Shown here: piece by piece, positions 5,594-35,621 of the stretch
How the letters are laid out: every line of letters starts with the position of its first letter
Numbering within the stretch: position 1 is the stretch's first letter
DNA from: Spirosoma pollinicola
GTDB taxonomy: Bacteria > Bacteroidota > Bacteroidia > Cytophagales > Spirosomataceae
Reading direction: 5' to 3'
Assembly: GCF_002831565.1 (NCBI RefSeq)
Contig: NZ_CP025096.1
Span: forward strand, 5,757,014-5,821,013
DNA: 64,000 bases
Made by a program: the position numbers and the translations under genes
Notes under the pieces: generated by a model
What the model was told of the DNA's origin: nothing
The model's database searches: none
Seen by the model: the letters and a program-made list of their open reading frames with translations, nothing else

Positions 5594-6301
5594 ATGAAGT
5601 TCTGCCTGAATCGCAAAACACCTTATTCTGTGATAAGCGGGTTGTTGCTGGTCTTAACGGTCTGGGGCTGTGGCTCATCCGATACCAAAACGAACACCAC
5701 AACGACACCCGCCGAACAAGCGGCCTCAAAACCTGACAGTCCGGCTAAAAAGCAAACGATTCTATTTTACGGCAATAGCCTGACCGCCGGTTATGGCGTT
5801 GAGCCATCGCAGGCGTTTTCGGCCCTGATCGGCAAAAAGGTTGACTCTTTGGGCTTAAACTATAGGGTTGTAAACGCCGGGTTAAGTGGCGAAACGACTG
5901 CTGGGGGCAAGAGCCGTATTGGTTGGGTGCTGCGCCAGCCTGTTGCCATTTTCGTGCTGGAATTGGGCGGCAACGACGGTTTGCGGGGACTCCCGCTTGC
6001 CGACACCCGGAAAAACCTGCAAGCGATTATGGATACCGTTCGGCAAAAAAGCCCGCAGGCAACAATTGTGCTGGCCGGGATGCAGATTCCACCCAATATG
6101 GGCACGTCCTACACGAAAGAGTTTCGAGGTATGTTCAAGGAGTTAGCCGACAAAAATAAAGCCGTTCTTATTCCGTTCCTGCTCGAAAACGTGGGGGGGA
6201 TTCCCAAACTGAACCAGCCCGATGGCATTCACCCAACCCCCGCCGGGCATAAAATTGTTGCCAACACAGTCTGGAAGGTAATTCGGCCTTTGCTGAAATA
6301 A
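5594..6301 (+). CDS. tesA: TesA-like SGNH/GDSL lipase-esterase, lipoprotein
   Basis: The 235-residue protein has a lipoprotein signal (LTVWGC, lipidated Cys26), a Thr/Ala-rich linker, and an SGNH hydrolase domain from about residue 52. The nucleophile block is YGNSLTAGYG, with Ser62 and Asn in place of the Asp of GDSL. Block III is ELGGND, and the Asp-His pair lies in DGIHPTPAGH near the C-terminus. E. coli TesA is a periplasmic thioesterase/lysophospholipase; here the protein should be membrane-anchored. It is divergent from the ybbA-ybbP pair, as in E. coli. A terminator follows 30 bp after the stop. Confidence 0.9.
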   Translation: MKFCLNRKTPYSVISGLLLVLTVWGCGSSDTKTNTTTTPAEQAASKPDSPAKKQTILFYGNSLTAGYGVEPSQAFSALIGKKVDSLGLNYRVVNAGLSGETTAGGKSRIGWVLRQPVAIFVLELGGNDGLRGLPLADTRKNLQAIMDTVRQKSPQATIVLAGMQIPPNMGTSYTKEFRGMFKELADKNKAVLIPFLLENVGGIPKLNQPDGIHPTPAGHKIVANTVWKVIRPLLK

Positions 6302-6330
6302 GGGTCTAAACACGGAGTCACGGAGGACAC

Positions 6331-6366
6331 AAAAAAAAGCCCCAACACGTGTCGGGGCTTTTTTTT
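6331..6366 (+). terminator. Rho-independent terminator after the tesA-like gene
   Basis: An A-run is followed by the stem AGCCCCAACAC / GTGTCGGGGCT (one mismatch) and then eight T. The A-run and T-run make it usable from both strands, so it could also serve the convergent tamL gene that ends at 6436. Confidence 0.85.
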
Positions 6367-6433
6367 GTAGTGCCGACCGGGACGGTCGGGTGTGTTCCTG
6401 CACTTATCACCCGACCGGGACAGTCGGTACTAC
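6367..6433. repeat. Pair of GTAG-headed palindromes facing each other (REP-like)
   Basis: One unit begins GTAGTGCCGACCGGGACGG at 6367 and forms a CCGACC/GGTCGG hairpin. A second unit in inverted orientation ends CAGTCGGTACTAC at 6433. The same sequence occurs as a single compact element at 29308-29336. A conserved GTAG head on a small hairpin is the known hallmark of REP elements mobilised by RAYT transposases. It sits between the convergent tesA-like and tamL genes. Confidence 0.7.
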
Positions 6434-6435
6434 AA

Positions 6436-8853
6436 TTAAAACGGATAGCCGACGGCTATGTTGAAGACCAGGTTTTGCTTGCGCCAATCGCTGCTTCCGA
6501 AAGCAATCTGGTTAATGACCCACTCACTGCCATTGGTTTTATAAGGTTTTCGCAATGGTGTTGCCAGATCGAAACGCACTAGAAAATAAGACAAGTCGAT
6601 GCGAATACCGACACCTGCGCCAATGGCAATCTGTTTGTAAAAGTCTGAGCTGAATTTAGCCTGAGCCTCTGCGCCAAAAATGTCATTGTCGGAGTACGTC
6701 CAGATGTTTCCCGCATCGACAAAAACCGCTCCTTCGATGTATTTCGTGAATTTCGCCCGGATTTCTGTATTGGCTTCCAGCTTGATGTCACCACCGCCAT
6801 CCTGGAACAGCAAGGCGTTTCGAATAGTATCGCGCGTGAATAGACCTGGCCCGATGGCCCGTGGCCGGAAGGCGCGTATGCTGTTGCTACCCCCTACAAA
6901 ATACTGTTTTGTTAAGGGCAACTGGAGCCCTTTGGAATTGCCATAGGTGATACCCAAACCGCCAAATAACCGGTTGGCCCAGGTTATTTTTGGCGTTAGT
7001 TTTGTGTATAGACGGGCGTCGGCATCAAGCCGTAGATATTGAGCGAATGGAACTTTAAAAATGATCTTGTCGCCATTGTCATCCCGTTTTTTAGCAAACA
7101 GATTAATTATATTTCCCGCAATTTCTGCGTTCGTCGCTAAGCGAAATGTGGTTGCAGAAGCAGACCGGAGCGATGTGTTGTAATTGAATGAATATAAGGA
7201 GCTTAAGATTAACTGCTTTGCGTTTTTAACCGTTAGTAATTGACGGAAAATGAACGGATTGTTACTTGCCGAGTCAATAAAAGCCGTGCTAATGTTAGAA
7301 GGTAGAACGTATGTAATATTAAATGGTTGAAAAACATGTTCTACCTGCTGGTTTTGCCGCCATGCATAGCCAAATGTTGTCTGGAATGAATTGAGGTCGT
7401 ATAGCCCCCCCCGAATTATTTTTTGATAACTGAGAGTGGCATTTGTTTTGGGTAATGCCTGACGGCGCTCGTCATATTTGAATCGAATTGGACTCACAAG
7501 GCGGGGGAAGCTCAATAGAGCATCGGCACCAAAGCGGTAGTTCGTAATGCTCTGCTGACCCCCACCTATCTGAAATTCAATCCCGACGTTGGTATTGATC
7601 GTTAATAATTCGGCACGTCTGAGCGCATTGCGATCTCTCCAACTAAGCACCACCTGCGAACCATTAAAGTTGTTCGAGCGTGAGGTACCGTCAAGTTCAG
7701 CCCGCACCGATTTCGTTGGGTAAGGAGTCAGGTAATAATGTACATCAAGTGCCGCCGAGTCGCCTTGTTGGTAGGGCTCGAATCTGTTGCGGACAAACTT
7801 GAACGCCCCAACGTTAATAAACCGCGAAAGAGTTAAGTCCTGTGTCCGGCTATTATAGCGCTTTCCGGGCTGTACCGTTACTATATCGCGGAAAAGTTTG
7901 GGGTTAAATCGTTTTGTTGAGTCGACAATCGTATACCGTTCTTCGCTTTTATAGGCTTTACTTAAGTTTGTGTCGGCCTGTGCAGTTGACAGACTGTAGT
8001 TTGGGTAAAGAAACACATTTCGAATGCCATAAGGTAAACCGGCCGCTTCGGGCATATCGGGCTTAATGGCAAAATAGAGGGTTGTGCGATGTCGGGCGGT
8101 ATCGTTATCGGCCAGAATAGCCAGATAGTCTGGCAGAAAGTAGTAGAACCCCCGTTGTTTAATGGCCTGACTGACACGCTCTCGTTCGAGCTTAAGGTTA
8201 TCGAAGCGGTAGGGGTCGCCTTTTTTTATGATCGTTCGCCGGGCTGCAAACCGAAGAGCCGATTTCATAGACTGCCGAATGTTGGTAGTGTCGATAAATA
8301 CGATGGTATCTATGGAAAAACGCTGTTTAACCCCTACCGTATAAACCCCTCTCGCTTTGTAGCCGATTTCTTTCAGTACGCCCGTTACGTTGGAGCCAAA
8401 ATAGCCTTCGTTTTGTAAGGTAGCTTTCCAGACGGGTGTATTCGATGAAATGGCTTTGGCACTGGCCAGTACCGGCTCTTCGCCAAACTTGCGCCGGAAC
8501 CACGCCCGGAAGCCATTTTTGCGTGGCTCGCCGAACAGGTAATACAAACCAACTTTATAGGGAAAGCCAAATAATTGCTTGTTGGGTCTTGGCCGGGCCA
8601 ATGCCCCTAATTGCTCTTTCAGGTTATCCTGCTCGTCTTTAGATACGGCCGAATCGGCATTCATAACAATGTCGGTCCCGGCATAAAGTCGCTCATTGGC
8701 GGGCAGATGCTTGGCAATATTACAGGCGTTAAGAGAGAGAATAAACAGGAACAGGAGTAACTGTATTGCCGGACGTAGTGGCCCGGCAATGCGTTGCTTT
8801 AACCCGTTTGGGGCACGCTGGATAGCTATAAAATGGTACAGACGAACAATCAT
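6436..8853 (-). CDS. tamL: TamL, lipoprotein form of TamA (Omp85-family outer membrane assembly protein)
   Basis: An 805-residue outer-membrane protein. The N-terminus is basic, then a hydrophobic stretch ends in LSLNAC, a lipobox with Cys44. POTRA-type repeats follow (for example FSIDTIVFIDTTNIRQS), then an Omp85 barrel with the GxxxIRAFRP-like motif (GGSNSIRAFRPRAIGPG) and a terminal aromatic residue (VGYPF). Bacteroidota carry a lipidated TamA variant called TamL, which works with TamB to move or fold outer-membrane proteins or lipids. The tamB gene ends 2 bp upstream on the same strand, so the two are surely one operon, here in the order tamB-tamL. Confidence 0.92.
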   Translation of the reverse strand: MIVRLYHFIAIQRAPNGLKQRIAGPLRPAIQLLLFLFILSLNACNIAKHLPANERLYAGTDIVMNADSAVSKDEQDNLKEQLGALARPRPNKQLFGFPYKVGLYYLFGEPRKNGFRAWFRRKFGEEPVLASAKAISSNTPVWKATLQNEGYFGSNVTGVLKEIGYKARGVYTVGVKQRFSIDTIVFIDTTNIRQSMKSALRFAARRTIIKKGDPYRFDNLKLERERVSQAIKQRGFYYFLPDYLAILADNDTARHRTTLYFAIKPDMPEAAGLPYGIRNVFLYPNYSLSTAQADTNLSKAYKSEERYTIVDSTKRFNPKLFRDIVTVQPGKRYNSRTQDLTLSRFINVGAFKFVRNRFEPYQQGDSAALDVHYYLTPYPTKSVRAELDGTSRSNNFNGSQVVLSWRDRNALRRAELLTINTNVGIEFQIGGGQQSITNYRFGADALLSFPRLVSPIRFKYDERRQALPKTNATLSYQKIIRGGLYDLNSFQTTFGYAWRQNQQVEHVFQPFNITYVLPSNISTAFIDSASNNPFIFRQLLTVKNAKQLILSSLYSFNYNTSLRSASATTFRLATNAEIAGNIINLFAKKRDDNGDKIIFKVPFAQYLRLDADARLYTKLTPKITWANRLFGGLGITYGNSKGLQLPLTKQYFVGGSNSIRAFRPRAIGPGLFTRDTIRNALLFQDGGGDIKLEANTEIRAKFTKYIEGAVFVDAGNIWTYSDNDIFGAEAQAKFSSDFYKQIAIGAGVGIRIDLSYFLVRFDLATPLRKPYKTNGSEWVINQIAFGSSDWRKQNLVFNIAVGYPF

Positions 8854-29307: not shown

Positions 29308-29336
29308 GTAGTACCGATCGTCCCGGTCGGTACTAC
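29308..29336. repeat. Compact GTAG-headed palindrome (REP-like)
   Basis: GTAGTACCGA and TCGGTACTAC flank a TCGTCCCGG-type centre. Both ends carry GTAG/CTAC. It has the same core (CCGA..GTCCCGGTCGG) as the pair at 6367-6433. It fills the gap between convergent genes and touches the stop codon region of the following minus-strand gene. Confidence 0.75.
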
Positions 29337-30235
29337 TATTTTCTACTCACCCTAATCGTCCAGTCCGGCCCGCTGAATACCTTGTATTTTTCCGAGAAGT
29401 TGCCCTGATTGATCGCAATCGAGAAGTTCAACAAACTATTGACATAGGCCGCATCGTCGCCAACAGGGACTTCGCCAAACGTGTTGACGAAACGAACACG
29501 CTTATCAAACAGCACTTTATCATTCTGGACAATCTGTATATGCAGCGTTTCGCCCGGTTTCGTGCCAATCTGATCGAGCATGGCTTTCGGGATATTACTC
29601 CAAACGTTGCCATATTGGATATCGAGCACAGGAATATTCCCTTTCACGGCATCCTTTTCTAACTTCGCTTTTTGATAGGGTAAACGAACGACTTCGTTGG
29701 GCAGCCTGGGGCCTACCTGCGCAAACGTGATCGTGCGTGAAGCCAGTCGGGCGGCCGTGTAAGCATACACATCCCGGCCGTGAAAGGTATAGGACGCCCC
29801 TGAGTTTTTGCGTCGGTTAAGTACTTCGTCAATTTGCCGTATTTCCAGAATGCCCAGGTGTTCGGCCAGTAACGTGAGGGTGCCGTTATCGGGTGTTACA
29901 ACGTAGTGTCCGGATTTTGTGAGCATCACAACTGAATGCCGTTCGGTGCCCACACCGGGATCGCAAACAGAAACAAAAACGGTTCCTTTTGGGTAATAGG
30001 GAACCGTTTGGTAAAGTCGGTACGAAGCCTCCCAGATATTATATGCTGGAATCTCATGGGTGAGGTCCATCAATGTAAGCGTCGGCGAAACCCCCAAGGC
30101 AACCCCTTTCATAGCCGACACGGCCCCGTCTTTCAAGCCGAAATCGGACTGGAACACCACAATACCGTTTTGCCCCTTTACCTGGGATGCGCCAAACAAA
30201 ATCAGCCATAAACTATAGCCGTAAATAAATTTCAT
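29336..30235 (-). CDS. SAM hydroxide adenosyltransferase family protein (DUF62) with signal peptide
   Basis: A 299-residue protein of the fluorinase/chlorinase-like family whose usual members hydrolyse S-adenosylmethionine to adenosine and methionine. Family motifs are SDFGLKDG (30-37), CDPGVGTERH (Asp92, Arg99), TPDNGTL (114-120) and FHGRDVYAY (His152). The Asp, Arg and His expected of the hydroxide-adenosyltransferase triad are all kept. The unusual part is the N-terminus (MKFIYGYSLWLILFGASQVKG), which reads as a cleavable signal peptide, so the enzyme should be periplasmic, where no SAM pool is known. The start ATG is directly before that signal. Confidence 0.87.
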   Translation of the reverse strand: MKFIYGYSLWLILFGASQVKGQNGIVVFQSDFGLKDGAVSAMKGVALGVSPTLTLMDLTHEIPAYNIWEASYRLYQTVPYYPKGTVFVSVCDPGVGTERHSVVMLTKSGHYVVTPDNGTLTLLAEHLGILEIRQIDEVLNRRKNSGASYTFHGRDVYAYTAARLASRTITFAQVGPRLPNEVVRLPYQKAKLEKDAVKGNIPVLDIQYGNVWSNIPKAMLDQIGTKPGETLHIQIVQNDKVLFDKRVRFVNTFGEVPVGDDAAYVNSLLNFSIAINQGNFSEKYKVFSGPDWTIRVSRK

Positions 30236-30275
30236 GTAGTTGGTTTTCAGGTGGATATCAGGTGATTTTTCTACT

Positions 30276-31067
30276 TTACAAACTAGTTGACCAACGATTT
30301 GTGCTGAATAAATAGAGGATTAAGCTTACCCCAAGTATACTAGCCATGTCGGCGAGTGTAAAGACAAGTTGAATCCAGTTGGCATCAATAGGAGCGAGCG
30401 TCAGGAAATAGCCCAGGAAATAAATTGTCCAGCAGGCGGCAAGGATCAGGGCTGAGAACCGGAAAGCTGAGCGGGTTACCCCGCCCAATTCTTTCCAGAG
30501 ACGATTGACCGTAACGACAAGAAATCCGAAGATAATTAGTGCAACGAAGGCCCATACTGCGAATGGACCAGCCTGAATTTCATTGTCGAACGTGAGTTGC
30601 TGATGACCAATATAACAGGCAAAGACCATTAGCGAGCTACCTGCCAGTAGCTTCATAAATGGGCGTTTGTATTGGCCGGGTTGAATCTGGAGGAGGGGAA
30701 GTAGCTGGAATGCCAGCAAGGGCGTTATGATAAACAGAGCCATATAGCGGTATTGACTTATGGCATTGTACGACTCACGAATGAGGGTTTGGCGGTCATT
30801 TCCATCAGGTACAGTGACTAAATCAGCCAGCACATCGTGATAATGGACCTGGATCAAATAGTAGGTAAGTCCGGCTACAGCGGCAATGACAGGAGTTACG
30901 AGGAATACCGGGCGATCCTGCTCTGAAGAGACAGGTTTTCTTGCCGCCAGCGAAAAGACGAACAGCCCTATGAAGACAAACATGGCTACGACCAGGAAGA
31001 AGTACGTAACCATCGGTAAAAGGCCAACGACACCGGCCGTTGGAACAAACGAATCAGCTATTTCCAT
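30276..31067 (-). CDS. Seven-helix microbial (type 1) opsin homologue lacking the retinal-binding lysine
   Basis: A 263-residue protein with seven membrane helices. Helix C reads RYMALFIITPLLAFQL and aligns without gaps to bacteriorhodopsin RYADWLFTTPLLLLDL: Arg82, Thr90 and Pro91 are kept, Asp85 becomes Ala110 and Asp96 becomes Gln121. Helix F has WTIYFLGY (Trp182 and Tyr185 equivalents). Helix G reads FTLADMASILG: Asp212 is kept (Asp240), but the Schiff-base Lys216 is Ile244 (codon ATA at 30336-30338). It therefore cannot bind retinal in the usual way. Lysine-less type 1 opsins are known, with unknown role. The start at 31067 follows a good promoter; the frame opens at 31121 inside the promoter. 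Confidence 0.85.
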   Translation of the reverse strand: MEIADSFVPTAGVVGLLPMVTYFFLVVAMFVFIGLFVFSLAARKPVSSEQDRPVFLVTPVIAAVAGLTYYLIQVHYHDVLADLVTVPDGNDRQTLIRESYNAISQYRYMALFIITPLLAFQLLPLLQIQPGQYKRPFMKLLAGSSLMVFACYIGHQQLTFDNEIQAGPFAVWAFVALIIFGFLVVTVNRLWKELGGVTRSAFRFSALILAACWTIYFLGYFLTLAPIDANWIQLVFTLADMASILGVSLILYLFSTNRWSTSL

Positions 31068-31090
31068 GAATGCAATAACGTTAATCACAT

Positions 31091-31121
31091 CAAAACTAAC
31101 GCTACTGCATTCATGGTGCAA
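31091..31121 (-). promoter_or_regulatory. Bacteroidota-type promoter of the opsin-like gene
   Basis: On the minus strand, TTG (31121-31119), a 20-bp spacer and TAGTTTTG (31098-31091) match the consensus. Transcription would start near 31084, 17 bases before the ATG at 31067. It overlaps the end region of the upstream DUF305-like gene's downstream gap. Confidence 0.65.
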
Positions 31122-31130
31122 TTTTAGTCG

Positions 31131-31787
31131 TTATTTAGGGGTAGCAGGCGTTGCCTTAAGGGCAGACATTTGCTGTTTAGACTTGTCGACCAGTTGCTGG
31201 GCGAAGTTTTTCAGCGTGCTGTTTTTGCCATACTGCAAATAAAGGGTAGCCATGTCGATAGCATCCTGGCGTTGGTCGAGCAGGAGCGTTGAGAAATTTT
31301 TATCTATATCACTCGTCAACTTATCGCTTGCACCGGTCTGTTGCAATTTCAGGCTCATAGCTTCGACATTACGGCTTTGCTGCTGTACGAATGCCTGATT
31401 AGGGCGCGTTGGCTTGATCTCAGTAAGCGTACCATTCAGCATAGCAACATCTGCATCTGAAGCCGCCAGCATGGTTTTCGCCATTTGTTTTAGCGCCGTA
31501 TCCTTCCCGTTCTGAATTTCCTGCTTTAGTAAATCCTGTGCTCCCTGCGTGTGAATTTTTGCCTGGAAAGCATAGTCAAAGTCAGGATCGCCGGTTGCCT
31601 GTAATTTTTTCATTTTGGCAATCATTTGCTGTAGCGGTTGCAGCAGTGTTGTTTTGGCTGGATCGCTGGCTGGTTGGGCACTCGCCGTAGCGGCTCCCGT
31701 TGTCGCTTGTGCACAGGCTATCATACTGCCACTTGACAGAAGGGCTGCCAGCGCCCAGACGGTAAGGTTGGATTGTAGCGTTTTCAT
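31131..31787 (-). CDS. Secreted DUF305-like protein with two helical units
   Basis: A 218-residue exported protein. The signal region ends in SGSMIACAQA; it may be cleaved there or lipidated at the Cys. An Ala/Thr-rich linker is followed by two helical units resembling DUF305 / ferritin-like four-helix modules: DFDYAFQAKIHTQGAQDLL and NFSTLLLDQRQDAIDMATLYL. In DUF305 proteins the first helix normally carries HHQGA-type histidines; here they are IHTQGA and QRQDA, so most metal-type ligands are missing. The start at 31787 gives a proper signal peptide. It lies directly upstream of the opsin-like gene on the same strand. Confidence 0.72.
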   Translation of the reverse strand: MKTLQSNLTVWALAALLSSGSMIACAQATTGAATASAQPASDPAKTTLLQPLQQMIAKMKKLQATGDPDFDYAFQAKIHTQGAQDLLKQEIQNGKDTALKQMAKTMLAASDADVAMLNGTLTEIKPTRPNQAFVQQQSRNVEAMSLKLQQTGASDKLTSDIDKNFSTLLLDQRQDAIDMATLYLQYGKNSTLKNFAQQLVDKSKQQMSALKATPATPK

Positions 31788-31915
31788 TTGGTACAGGTAT
31801 TTTGCTGTTAAACTAATCCTATTCTTTACTAAAGACAAAAATCAAGCCAGAAGGTTTAATGAGTCAGGGGTCGTTATCAGCACATTAATAAATTTATTTC
31901 CTTCGTACTGAGCAT

Positions 31916-31945
31916 AAAAAAAGGGCAGATGACTGCCCTTTTTAA
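31916..31945 (-). terminator. Terminator of the AT-rich nuclease cassette
   Basis: AAAAGGGCAG and CTGCCCTTTT form a perfect stem with the loop ATGA, flanked by A-runs and T-runs. It lies 22 bp beyond the stop codon of the 129-residue gene at 31967. Confidence 0.8.
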
Positions 31946-31966
31946 AACAAATTAATTAGCGTGGTC

Positions 31967-32356
31967 TTACTCTGCAAGACTTTGCGAAAGAAGTGATGAA
32001 ATGACTCTAGTAGTGGAAGTATCCTTAAATATTTGACTAAGTATACTTAGGAACTCTTGCTGGTTTTCAATTTTTATCTCTGATAGACCTCCTTGTACTT
32101 CATTCCAAGTAACTACCAGAGGGTAAAAAAGTACTTCATGTGAAACCGTAAAAATCCTATAACGGTAATTATTTAAAGCAGGGGCAACAACAAAAAATTG
32201 ATGTATTATTTGCCCATTACCCTGAACAGTTTCTACGTCTGCCGAAAGTACATTATTAGTTTTAGCCATTAAATAACCCGCTTGTTCCTTCAGGATAGCT
32301 CTGGGACTTTTTGTGACTTCGACGGGGAAATCAGGCCAAAGATTTTTCGTTTCCAT
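31967..32356 (-). CDS. Small protein of unknown function in the nuclease cassette
   Basis: A 129-residue protein I do not recognise. It has no signal peptide and no membrane helix; it looks soluble, with alternating strands and helices (HQFFVVAPALNNYRYRIFTVS, hydrophobic beta-like) and an acidic C-terminal half. It begins 5 bp after the EEP-family gene ends, so both are cotranscribed. Base composition is visibly AT-richer than most of the window, which hints at transfer. It could be a partner, regulator or immunity protein for the nuclease; this is a guess from the operon layout only. Confidence 0.7.
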   Translation of the reverse strand: METKNLWPDFPVEVTKSPRAILKEQAGYLMAKTNNVLSADVETVQGNGQIIHQFFVVAPALNNYRYRIFTVSHEVLFYPLVVTWNEVQGGLSEIKIENQQEFLSILSQIFKDTSTTRVISSLLSQSLAE

Positions 32357-32361
32357 ATTCC

Positions 32362-33183
32362 TTAGAATTTCAATGTAAAAAACAACGGCAAATGGTCGGA
32401 GTACGTTTTCTGATTCGGTAGATTCCGTTTTGTTACCAGTGAAGATACACCATCAGTCTTTATAATTTCTAAACTATTCTTCACAAAATTAGTCACTAGG
32501 CTAGGTCGTATCAATACTTGGTCAAATAGGTTCCACTCATAACACACGTGTTCAGCGTGTTTGTAATAGTAGGTGCCTGAAACATCTTTATTCAAATCAC
32601 CAAACAAGCTCCAGGTTGGATTGTAAAAGTATGGGTACTCCCTTGTTTGTACAATCCTAGATACATTACTAGCTACTTCACTTGACATAGTGCCGTGAAA
32701 CCCATTGGCTTTAATCATACCGATCTCAAATGGATTCATATTAAAATCGCCTACTACAATATGGCGGTTAATCCGAAATCTATTTTCTATCTTAAGAAGT
32801 TGGTCAGCTACCAAGGATGCGGCTTCGTTCTGACTTTCTGTTGTAAAACTCCCTTTATCTACTAAATGGAGTCCGGTGAGCAAGAAGTCTTCGCCTGTTG
32901 GCAAATGTACATGTCTGGTAGTAAGACGAGAGGTCTCTTCGAGTGGTGTAATCGAGTCATAATGAAATTTACTCACAACGGTAATCTTTCTACACTGAGA
33001 TAGAGGATTATTCTGAAAGTAGTATGGCCCCTTTGTATTCAACGCCTGAACAAGTTGAGTAGAACTAACTGGATTTTCAGCCAGTATCAGAATATCAACA
33101 TCCTTATTATGTGCAATATTGATAATCTGAGCAGTCAGATCTTTCTTTTGAACATTCCAGAATAAGATGTTGAGTGTGGACAT
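32362..33183 (-). CDS. Endonuclease/exonuclease/phosphatase (EEP) family protein
   Basis: A 273-residue protein with all EEP-fold landmarks in order: FWNVQ (Asn10), LAENP (Glu36), VVGDFNMNP (the DxN catalytic pair) and YSDHLPLFF (the SDH triad end). The fold cleaves phosphodiester or phosphate bonds with a divalent metal, and substrates range from DNA to inositol phosphates and lipids. No signal peptide is present, so it acts in the cytoplasm. It forms a two-gene, AT-rich unit with the small downstream protein. The substrate cannot be told from the sequence. Confidence 0.85.
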   Translation of the reverse strand: MSTLNILFWNVQKKDLTAQIINIAHNKDVDILILAENPVSSTQLVQALNTKGPYYFQNNPLSQCRKITVVSKFHYDSITPLEETSRLTTRHVHLPTGEDFLLTGLHLVDKGSFTTESQNEAASLVADQLLKIENRFRINRHIVVGDFNMNPFEIGMIKANGFHGTMSSEVASNVSRIVQTREYPYFYNPTWSLFGDLNKDVSGTYYYKHAEHVCYEWNLFDQVLIRPSLVTNFVKNSLEIIKTDGVSSLVTKRNLPNQKTYSDHLPLFFTLKF

Positions 33184-34650: not shown

Positions 34651-35535
34651 CTACCGGCGTCTGCGTGGCGGTCCGTCATTACGTGGCCCATCGTTGCGTG
34701 GTCCGTCATTACGCGGTCCGTCGTTACGTGGTCCGTCATTACGGTCGTTGCGGTTCCGGTTGCCAAAATTGCGTTGTGAGCCGTCGTTTCTATCGTTGCG
34801 GTTATTCGTGCGGCCCTGTCCACCTGATCCGCCATCATTACGATTGCGGTTATTGACATTGCGTGGTCCGTCGTTACGATTATTGGGGCGGCCCTGCTGA
34901 CCTATTCCACCTTCGGTCCGGTTACGGTCGTTGCGGTAATTATTGCCGCTAATGCGTTGCGGCTGATCGCCGGTGCGCTCGCGGGGCGTTGCTTCAACGA
35001 GACCTTCCTCCCGAATTAATTTGATATCATCGGCGAGTTTACCCTTCGAGAGTTCGATCAGGCTCTGATAAATGGTTTCATCTTCAACAGATTCTTTATT
35101 CCATACCTGATAAAAGGAGCGCATCAGGCGCGTCAGGTAAGAAACAAAGGCACGCCGTTCGTCGGGCTCTTCCAGGGCAATAGCTTTTGCGATCAACAAA
35201 TCTACATTTCGGCCAAAATGCTTGAAGCGTAGATTATGGGTATTATATGGAACCCGCTGTGGCTTTTTGCCCAGTGCTTCCTCCGATGGCGGTGGATAAG
35301 GGCTGTCAACATCCAGCGTAAAATTGGACATGATATAGAGGTCGTCCCACAATTTATTATAGTAGTCCTGACCATCCTTCATGTTCGGATGGATTTGCCG
35401 CATCAACTCAATCAGGATATGTGCATACCGAGTTCGGGTTGAGCGATCTTCGATGTTGACCATGTTGTCAACTAACTTTTGGATACTACTGCCGTATTCT
35501 TTCAAGGGCTTGCCCGATAGGTTATAAAGAAACAA
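34651..35535 (-). CDS. DUF4290 family protein with an Arg-Asn-Asp-Gly-Pro repeat tail
   Basis: About 294 residues. Residues 1-180 match the DUF4290 family of Bacteroidota (YNLSGKPLKEYGSSIQKLVD, then LWDDLYIMSNFTLDVDSPYP), whose role is unknown. The last 110 residues are disordered, rich in Arg, Asn, Asp and Gly, and end in five near-perfect RNDGP units followed by PPRRRR. The basic RG/RN-rich tail looks like a nucleic-acid-binding or phase-separating tail. I chose the TTG at 35535 because conserved residues begin two codons later and no ATG precedes them sensibly. A TAnnTTTG-like element overlaps this TTG, so the start is uncertain. Confidence 0.75.
   Translation of the reverse strand: MFLYNLSGKPLKEYGSSIQKLVDNMVNIEDRSTRTRYAHILIELMRQIHPNMKDGQDYYNKLWDDLYIMSNFTLDVDSPYPPPSEEALGKKPQRVPYNTHNLRFKHFGRNVDLLIAKAIALEEPDERRAFVSYLTRLMRSFYQVWNKESVEDETIYQSLIELSKGKLADDIKLIREEGLVEATPRERTGDQPQRISGNNYRNDRNRTEGGIGQQGRPNNRNDGPRNVNNRNRNDGGSGGQGRTNNRNDRNDGSQRNFGNRNRNDRNDGPRNDGPRNDGPRNDGPRNDGPPRRRR
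34668..34745. repeat. 15-bp tandem repeat coding for RNDGP units
   Basis: About five copies of a GTCCGTCATTACGTG-like unit lie at the 3' end of the DUF4290 gene (minus-strand coding). Copies differ mainly at third codon positions (TCATTA versus TCGTTG), so the protein repeat is kept while the DNA drifts. Confidence 0.8.
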
Positions 35536-35621
35536 AAGTACGAAGGAATGGGCCAAGGGGCAAGGGGTAATGAGCGTAGGGTTCCGGGCAGGTAATATGG
35601 GCACCGCGAGGGGAGAAATAC

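Follow-up and report, generated by a model that had tools for sequence, protein, structure and literature searches.

What is left for a microbial opsin to do when the lysine that carries retinal is gone? The question is raised by a gene of Spirosoma pollinicola that lies on the minus strand at 30276-31067 of a 64,000-nucleotide stretch of DNA (NZ_CP025096.1, positions 5,757,014 to 5,821,013; hereafter the window, to which coordinates refer unless another locus is named), part of a genome of 8.79 Mb in one contig. Stop included, this segment encodes a protein of 263 amino acids with the fold of a microbial opsin and without the retinal lysine. We show that opsins of its group stand beside a gene for a CopM-like lipoprotein, that the lysine disappeared more than once within the genus and the counterion is absent from every lysine-less member, and that the lysine-less genes are nevertheless maintained by selection. 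We give an even chance to the explanation that the product is a seven-helix protein that carries no retinal and works independently of light on the periplasmic side, with the CopM-like lipoprotein as its most likely partner.

The original prediction, made from the letters of the DNA alone, had called the gene a microbial opsin homologue without the retinal lysine, and this is confirmed. Pfam Bac_rhodopsin (PF01036) matches residues 20-251 with 44.6 bits (cut-off 24.6) and is the only family matched at E values up to 0.1. AlphaFold2, given 31 sequences, predicts seven long helices (mean pLDDT 89.6, pTM 0.88), and all 50 Foldseek matches shown for the model are microbial rhodopsins, with CryoR2 (8r96; E 4e-8, TM 0.74) at the top and xanthorhodopsin 3ddl, ESR 4hyj and bacteriorhodopsin among them. 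Both a structure model and a profile search, which had been proposed as checks, thus place the protein in the opsin family. In bacteriorhodopsin numbering, Lys216 is replaced by Ile244 (codon ATA, read 30338-30336 on the minus strand), Asp85 by Ala110 (codon at 30738-30740, minus strand; the primary counterion position) and Asp96 by Gln, whereas Arg82, Thr90, Pro91, Trp182, Tyr185 and Asp212 are retained. The last of these is Asp240 (codon at 30348-30350, minus strand) and is invariant in 28 of 28 intact opsins that adjoin the lipoprotein gene. The predicted residue assignments in helices C, F and G were correct but overlooked that Trp86 (Leu111) and Thr89 (Ile114) are gone as well, although the 11 further intact lysine-less members keep both. 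The window protein has Leu at position 142 and Cys at position 122. None of the four lysines of the protein (44, 134, 139 and 192) stands at a pocket position, by the list of residues that we take to line the retinal pocket, and an alternative Schiff-base lysine is therefore rejected. Helix G Lys216 and a carboxylate counterion at position 85, two marks of a functional retinal-binding rhodopsin, are both absent. The gene is also shorter than assumed: a start at TTG 31121 had been proposed, but a Met matches ATG 31067 in each of the 20 aligned relatives, which makes this the family start and leaves 31068-31121 as an intergenic, hairpin-forming segment.

Bac_rhodopsin matches are present in 35 of 36 Spirosoma genomes, and among the opsins fetched from the genus one clade of 33 loci contains the window gene. 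In 29 of these loci (16 with the lysine, 13 without) a CopM/DUF305-type lipoprotein gene immediately precedes the opsin on the same strand; the remaining four loci are all lysine-bearing and group together as one subclade. The 28 intact paired opsins are a single clade (support 99/98). Locus L054, whose opsin frame is broken, is excluded from this tree and from the codon, constraint and hairpin counts. In the window the lipoprotein gene occupies 31131-31787 (minus strand) and matches Pfam DUF305 with 44.8 bits (cut-off 27) and DUF4142 with 31.1 bits. It encodes a small exported protein with a Cys, invariant in 29 of 29 copies, in a site judged by eye to resemble a lipobox. Of the two neighbours for which a survey across Spirosoma had been suggested, the DUF305-like gene is the real partner candidate, being present at 29 of 29 paired loci. 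The SAM hydrolase (SAM for S-adenosylmethionine) is not, as detailed below.

The lysine is absent from 13 of the 29 paired opsins, replaced by Ile, Leu, Val, Gln or Cys. Asp85 and Asp115 are both missing in 13 of 13 of them, whereas Asp85 or Glu85 is found in 16 of 16 lysine-bearing paired opsins and Asp115 in 10 of 16. Outside Spirosoma, close relatives come from Hymenobacter, from two genomes of a further genus in this family and from a few metagenome bins; all that were aligned or read retain Lys216 and Asp85, and the nearest rows found are opsins of Spirosoma and Hymenobacter. Within the genus the lysine disappeared at least twice: lysine-less L055 groups with lysine-bearing L051 (99/96), in the same chromosomal setting and apart from the other twelve lysine-less opsins, and a single clade of the 12 intact lysine-less rows is rejected (p-AU 0.018, in a test run after the first tree had been seen). 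At the fewest, three changes of lysine state are needed on the tree because lysine-bearing L056 falls among lysine-less rows, a placement with moderate support (93/84). As a separate observation, five lysine-bearing opsins (L038, L040, L045, L049 and L050) keep Asp85 too but carry Ala, Gly or Leu for Trp182 and Ile or Val for Thr90, which makes their photochemistry hard to predict.

To follow where selection acts in these proteins, each position was assigned by hand, on the basis of the predicted helices, to one of four classes: the outer (periplasmic) face, the inner face, the retinal pocket or the remainder. The sidedness of the faces is presumably that of the usual rhodopsin topology. Constraint was expressed as pairwise differences relative to the mean of each group (L115, L116 and L101-L104 were omitted). 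In unpaired relatives the pocket varies little and both faces lie above the mean (pocket 0.09, outer 1.05 and inner 1.27 in 8 balanced rows; 0.08, 1.02 and 1.26 in all 16 rows). Paired canonical opsins (10 rows, from the second chromosomal setting and L061) have values of 0.27 for the pocket and 0.79 for the outer face. Lysine-bearing paired intermediates (6 rows) reach 0.81 and 0.49, and lysine-less opsins of the main setting (11 rows) 0.78 and 0.62. In 2000 of 2000 column bootstraps the paired opsins had a smaller outer/inner ratio and a larger pocket/outer ratio than the unpaired ones; the columns are phylogenetically non-independent. At the level of single positions, 25 of 82 on the outer face but only 1 of 75 on the inner, cytoplasmic-side face are kept in at least 27 of the 28 paired opsins. 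Among the outer-side residues that paired opsins retain and unpaired ones do not are Gln93, Glu98 and Phe160, together with Gln73 just beneath the face. In paired opsins the periplasmic face has thus taken over the constraint that the retinal pocket bears in unpaired relatives, and this shift is already visible in lysine-bearing forms. Since the intermediates combine the lysine with a variable pocket and a held outer face, the pocket could already change in opsins that retain the lysine.

A codon model of the 28 intact paired genes gave an omega of 0.170 for lysine-bearing and 0.208 for lysine-less branches (p 0.022 for the difference); omega of the lysine-less branches together is far below 1 (likelihood-ratio test, LRT, 634), that of the L055 branch is 0.158 (LRT 40 against 1) and that of the window branch 0.334 (LRT 14.7, p 1e-4). 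The 12 intact lysine-less genes are therefore under purifying selection. The original prediction had arrived at selection from the intact frame; the conclusion stands, the argument from an open frame alone does not. For the lipoprotein, omega was 0.084 in lysine-paired and 0.111 in lysine-less-paired loci (three classes, p 0.055).

Loss of the lysine could simply follow loss of retinal. Of the 36 Spirosoma genomes, 10 have Blh and 6 have RPE65-like oxygenases; the window genome has no match to either. Of the 13 genomes whose paired opsin lacks the lysine, 1 has a Blh or RPE65 gene, versus 8 of the 16 with the lysine form (Fisher p 0.02, uncorrected for relatedness). Still, retinal-gene loss as the sole explanation is rejected: genome G030 has both Blh and RPE65 matches together with a lysine-less paired opsin. 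Conversely, 8 of the 16 lysine-form genomes keep the lysine though they have neither gene. Missing Blh and RPE65 is no proof that retinal is missing, since a bacterium without known retinal genes makes retinal according to the available part of one report (PMC7734400).

We return to the explanation favoured here. The gene product would be a retinal-free inner-membrane protein with seven helices, descended from a light-driven opsin with Asp85, Thr89 and Lys96, a type that we take to be the Asp-Thr-Lys class. Its conserved work would be independent of light and located on the periplasmic side, where the CopM-like lipoprotein may dock on the conserved outer face or deliver something to it. The bond may be asymmetric, the opsin needing the lipoprotein and not the reverse, which is compatible with the data. 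As to the order of events, we consider it plausible, though somewhat short of an even chance, that the light-independent periplasmic job with the lipoprotein came first, at a time when the opsin still had its retinal chemistry, that the pocket eroded next in lysine-bearing intermediates, and that lysine and counterion went last and independently in at least two lineages. If so, some lysine-bearing "rhodopsins" of this group, those with Ala, Gly or Leu for Trp182, would already be light-blind, and the lysine alone would be no marker of a photoreceptor.

In favour of this explanation, the gene pair persists in two chromosomal settings, whose genes were named from Pfam scans of example copies: one with a MurA-like EPSP synthase, an ABC transporter and the SAM hydrolase, the other with an HflX-like GTPase, MatE, NIF3 and a pyruvate-carboxylase-like or DUF2383 gene. 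A MurA-like or ABC transporter gene adjoins all nine opsin-less lipoprotein genes (7 in Spirosoma, 2 in genomes of another genus). The two genomes of another genus combine features of both settings, so a single ancestral arrangement that was rearranged later is likely, and the pairing is in part simple inheritance. The SAM hydroxide adenosyltransferase homologue at 29336-30235 (minus strand; Pfam SAM_HAT_N, 173 bits) had been read as a possible clue to the function of the opsin. Only 14 of the 29 paired loci, all of the first setting, have it near the opsin, and in 13 of these the two genes are immediate neighbours; we judge it a syntenic neighbour outside the system and reject it as a partner.

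Several results weigh against the explanation that we prefer. The lipoprotein gene is universal in the genus (36 of 36 genomes), including 7 genomes without this opsin, and the pair could be plain vertical synteny, as both settings share members with the arrangement in the two genomes outside the genus. Omega of the lipoprotein is 0.090 in the 9 opsin-less loci and 0.095 in paired loci (p 0.69). The lipoprotein is equally constrained without the opsin, so its conservation does not come from the opsin, and opsin contact as its cause is unsupported; among all the results this one weighs most against a direct partnership. The window branch has the highest omega class fitted, and the window member has in addition lost Trp86 and Thr89. 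The link between retinal genes and the lysine comes from a comparison that ignores the relatedness of the genomes. Finally, decay does occur: in L054 (opsin around 5960-6758 of that locus; named copy L099, Spirosoma telluris) the lysine-less opsin frame is broken while the lipoprotein gene is open. Inheritance as neighbours without any contact also fits the data, but would leave the held outer face unexplained.

The broken copy, the 7 of 36 genomes that have the lipoprotein without this opsin and the omega of 0.33 on the window branch are what would be expected if the gene were on its way out and its neighbour mere synteny. We regard this as unlikely, given that omega is well below 1 for the window branch as well as for all lysine-less branches combined, that 12 of the 13 lysine-less genes are intact and that their outer face is conserved. 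To a similar degree improbable is a retinal-free signalling receptor that senses a periplasmic ligand presented by the lipoprotein and signals inward. The loss of the lysine, the altered pocket and the retained core Arg and Asp would agree with such a receptor, and the haloarchaeal ORPs are argued to be retinal-free sensors in the available text on them (PMC4915679). However, no HAMP/MCP transducer domain was found in Pfam scans of the window neighbours and of chosen neighbours of L033, L037, L044, L046, L048, L053 and L061 (these seven loci stand for the settings seen, the remaining loci being compared by clustering only), and a single conserved position out of 75 on the inner face is not what one would expect of a protein whose partner in the cytoplasm is fixed. 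The suggestion of a chromophore-free or differently bound sensor is accordingly divided: absence of a chromophore is favoured by the eroded pocket and by the pocket without lysine, and the sensor role is not.

An odd photoreceptor that binds retinal or a carotenoid non-covalently is slightly less probable again. Trp182, Tyr185, Arg82 and Asp212 are retained, the genome has a second, lysine-bearing opsin (L001/L064, with Asp85, Thr89, Lys at position 96 and Lys216), and retinal can be made without known retinal genes (PMC7734400, in the part available). Against this stand a pocket diversity that has risen from 0.09 to 0.78 of the mean, the absence of Asp85 in 13 of 13 lysine-less opsins, Leu at 142 and Cys at 122 in the window protein and the genome without Blh or RPE65 matches. 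Quite improbable is a regulatory subunit that combines with a canonical rhodopsin of its own cell, the role proposed for Rh-noK. In the window genome the paralogue L001/L064 speaks for it, but as a general role it is contradicted by the 11 of 13 lysine-less paired genomes without any other Bac_rhodopsin match.

The paired opsins share a further feature, a hairpin in front of the gene. In the window it spans 31068-31112 (minus strand), with 19 pairs and its end flush with the opsin ATG (-23.4 kcal/mol, z -6.2), and resembles a terminator or an attenuator. The 62 nt before the opsin ATG contain a strong hairpin in 28 of 28 intact paired loci, ending 0-8 nt from the ATG (mean z -5.9, all below -2), versus 1 of 14 unpaired relatives. 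Among control upstream regions it was found in 2 of 15 for MurA, 2 of 16 for DUF4290, 2 of 28 for the lipoprotein and 1 of 11 for the SAM hydrolase. These controls comprise 15 of 18, 16 of 17, 28 of 29 and 11 of 14 copies, respectively, and leave aside the window copy and copies without a found start motif or with a short flank; L082 and L086 were omitted from the hairpin control and from the tree. The stem is supported by two-sided changes at 6 of 17 pairs in a sub-alignment of 8 loci and 5 of 15 pairs in one of 6 loci, out of 28 (L050 was omitted, its 45 letters being identical to L038); 2 of 500 and 13 of 500 shuffles reached these counts, and 0 of 500 reached the covariation score in both. 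A terminator-like T run lies between stem and ATG in 11 of 28 copies, and the broken L054 locus has the hairpin as well. It is not an element of the opsin only, a possibility that we reject because 8 of 9 opsin-less lipoprotein genes are followed by a hairpin within 100 nt (best z at most -3.7, an optimistic figure taken as the best of several sub-windows). The hairpin thus probably began as the terminator of the lipoprotein gene, and it may now limit the dose of the opsin by attenuation. The "good promoter of its own" that had been ascribed to the opsin gene turned out to be weak. An own sigma-70 promoter is rejected: the one site in 30180-32100 lies inside the opsin frame, versus 2.9 expected by chance, and none is upstream. 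A Bacteroidetes-type promoter-like motif, TTG-N20-TAGTTTTG, at 31091-31121 (minus strand) overlaps the hairpin and is uncertain, being present in 6 of 28 paired loci; it occurs 9 times in the window versus 3.8 expected.

Some observations on the surroundings stand apart from these arguments. Ferritin-like genes lie beside the pair in some lineages (Ferritin_2 in L061, 5200-5976; DUF2383 in L048, 5765-6226, and its kin), and envelope proteins of the ferritin-like kind may tend to be encoded here. In four mapped loci (the window, L039, L043 and L047) two genes separate the MurA-like gene from that of the lipoprotein; in the window they lie at 31967-33183 and encode a protein of 129 amino acids without a Pfam match and an endonuclease/exonuclease/phosphatase-like protein. 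The window further encodes, at 34651-35604, a DUF4290 protein with a C-terminal tandem repeat of NDGPR units. Downstream of the lysine-bearing paralogue (L064 5938-6876), Pfam identifies a response-regulator gene (L001 3263-3688) and a PAS/histidine-kinase gene (L064 8437-10845), in a genome without Blh or RPE65 matches.

Among known systems, the partner lipoprotein is nearest to CopM and the DUF305 family (5ffa, 2qf9) in both sequence and fold. Its model (pLDDT 79.7) resembles CopM, with weak Foldseek E-values from 4e-3, and its score against NCBIfam CopM (67.9 bits) stays below the cut-off of 90. The second repeat of the aligned partners does not retain the His pair that is a usual mark of DUF305 proteins, and metal binding by the partner is therefore doubtful.

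Lysine-less type 1 opsins reportedly occur in Guillardia theta. Others are the haloarchaeal ORPs (PMC4915679) and Rh-noK and the freshwater FArhodopsins (PMC10308929); what follows holds as far as the available portions of these sources go. Like the Spirosoma opsin, Rh-noK of marine betaproteobacteria is bacterial, related to xanthorhodopsin and without the lysine. Unlike Rh-noK, which stands in tandem with a proteorhodopsin (PMC10308929), the lysine-less Spirosoma opsins have lost the counterion too and are the only opsin match in 11 of 13 genomes; in G000 and G030 the second opsin is far from the lysine-less one or on another contig, with no tandem. Most freshwater FArhodopsins share with the Spirosoma opsins the missing lysine, and the family shares a constant neighbour that is no transducer. 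However, their neighbour is a flotillin, and a proteorhodopsin is found elsewhere in the genome in all cases (PMC10308929). No flotillin-type family appeared among the scanned neighbours of the window and the seven further loci. CryoRhodopsins (8r96, 8r0p) have the nearest solved fold by Foldseek E-value among the matches shown, and a small gene adjoins theirs in all genomes examined in the accessible text (PMC12227055). They differ in binding retinal, and their neighbour is a putative cytoplasmic transducer (DUF7882) rather than an exported lipoprotein (PMC12227055).

From the genus itself, an "NDQ" rhodopsin of Spirosoma oryzae and a rhodopsin gene of S. linguale appear in the parts of the literature available. 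No paper on a pair of DUF305 (or lipoprotein) and rhodopsin was found in the literature searched, which misses most subscription papers and preprints. As far as that literature shows, three findings are new: that the opsin is paired with a lipoprotein gene, that the lysine was lost repeatedly in one genus, and that constraint shifted in graded steps. The role of lysine-less microbial opsins becomes testable within a single genus, where canonical, intermediate and lysine-less forms have one lipoprotein gene as their common neighbour and where named, deposited strains carry some of them. With this series one can ask directly whether the opsin fold has a light-independent job, and which job that is. 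The ORPs likewise have no Lys216, have an eroded pocket, are kept in many species and often have a fixed kind of neighbour; they form one clade in which many members adjoin HAMP/MCP transducers, whereas Spirosoma exhibits recurrent losses in one genus beside an exported CopM-like lipoprotein (PMC4915679, as far as its available text goes). It is for the ORPs that the nearest parallel to our proposal has been raised, namely that type 1 opsins may serve as sensors of stimuli other than light, like G-protein-coupled receptors (same source, with the same scope).
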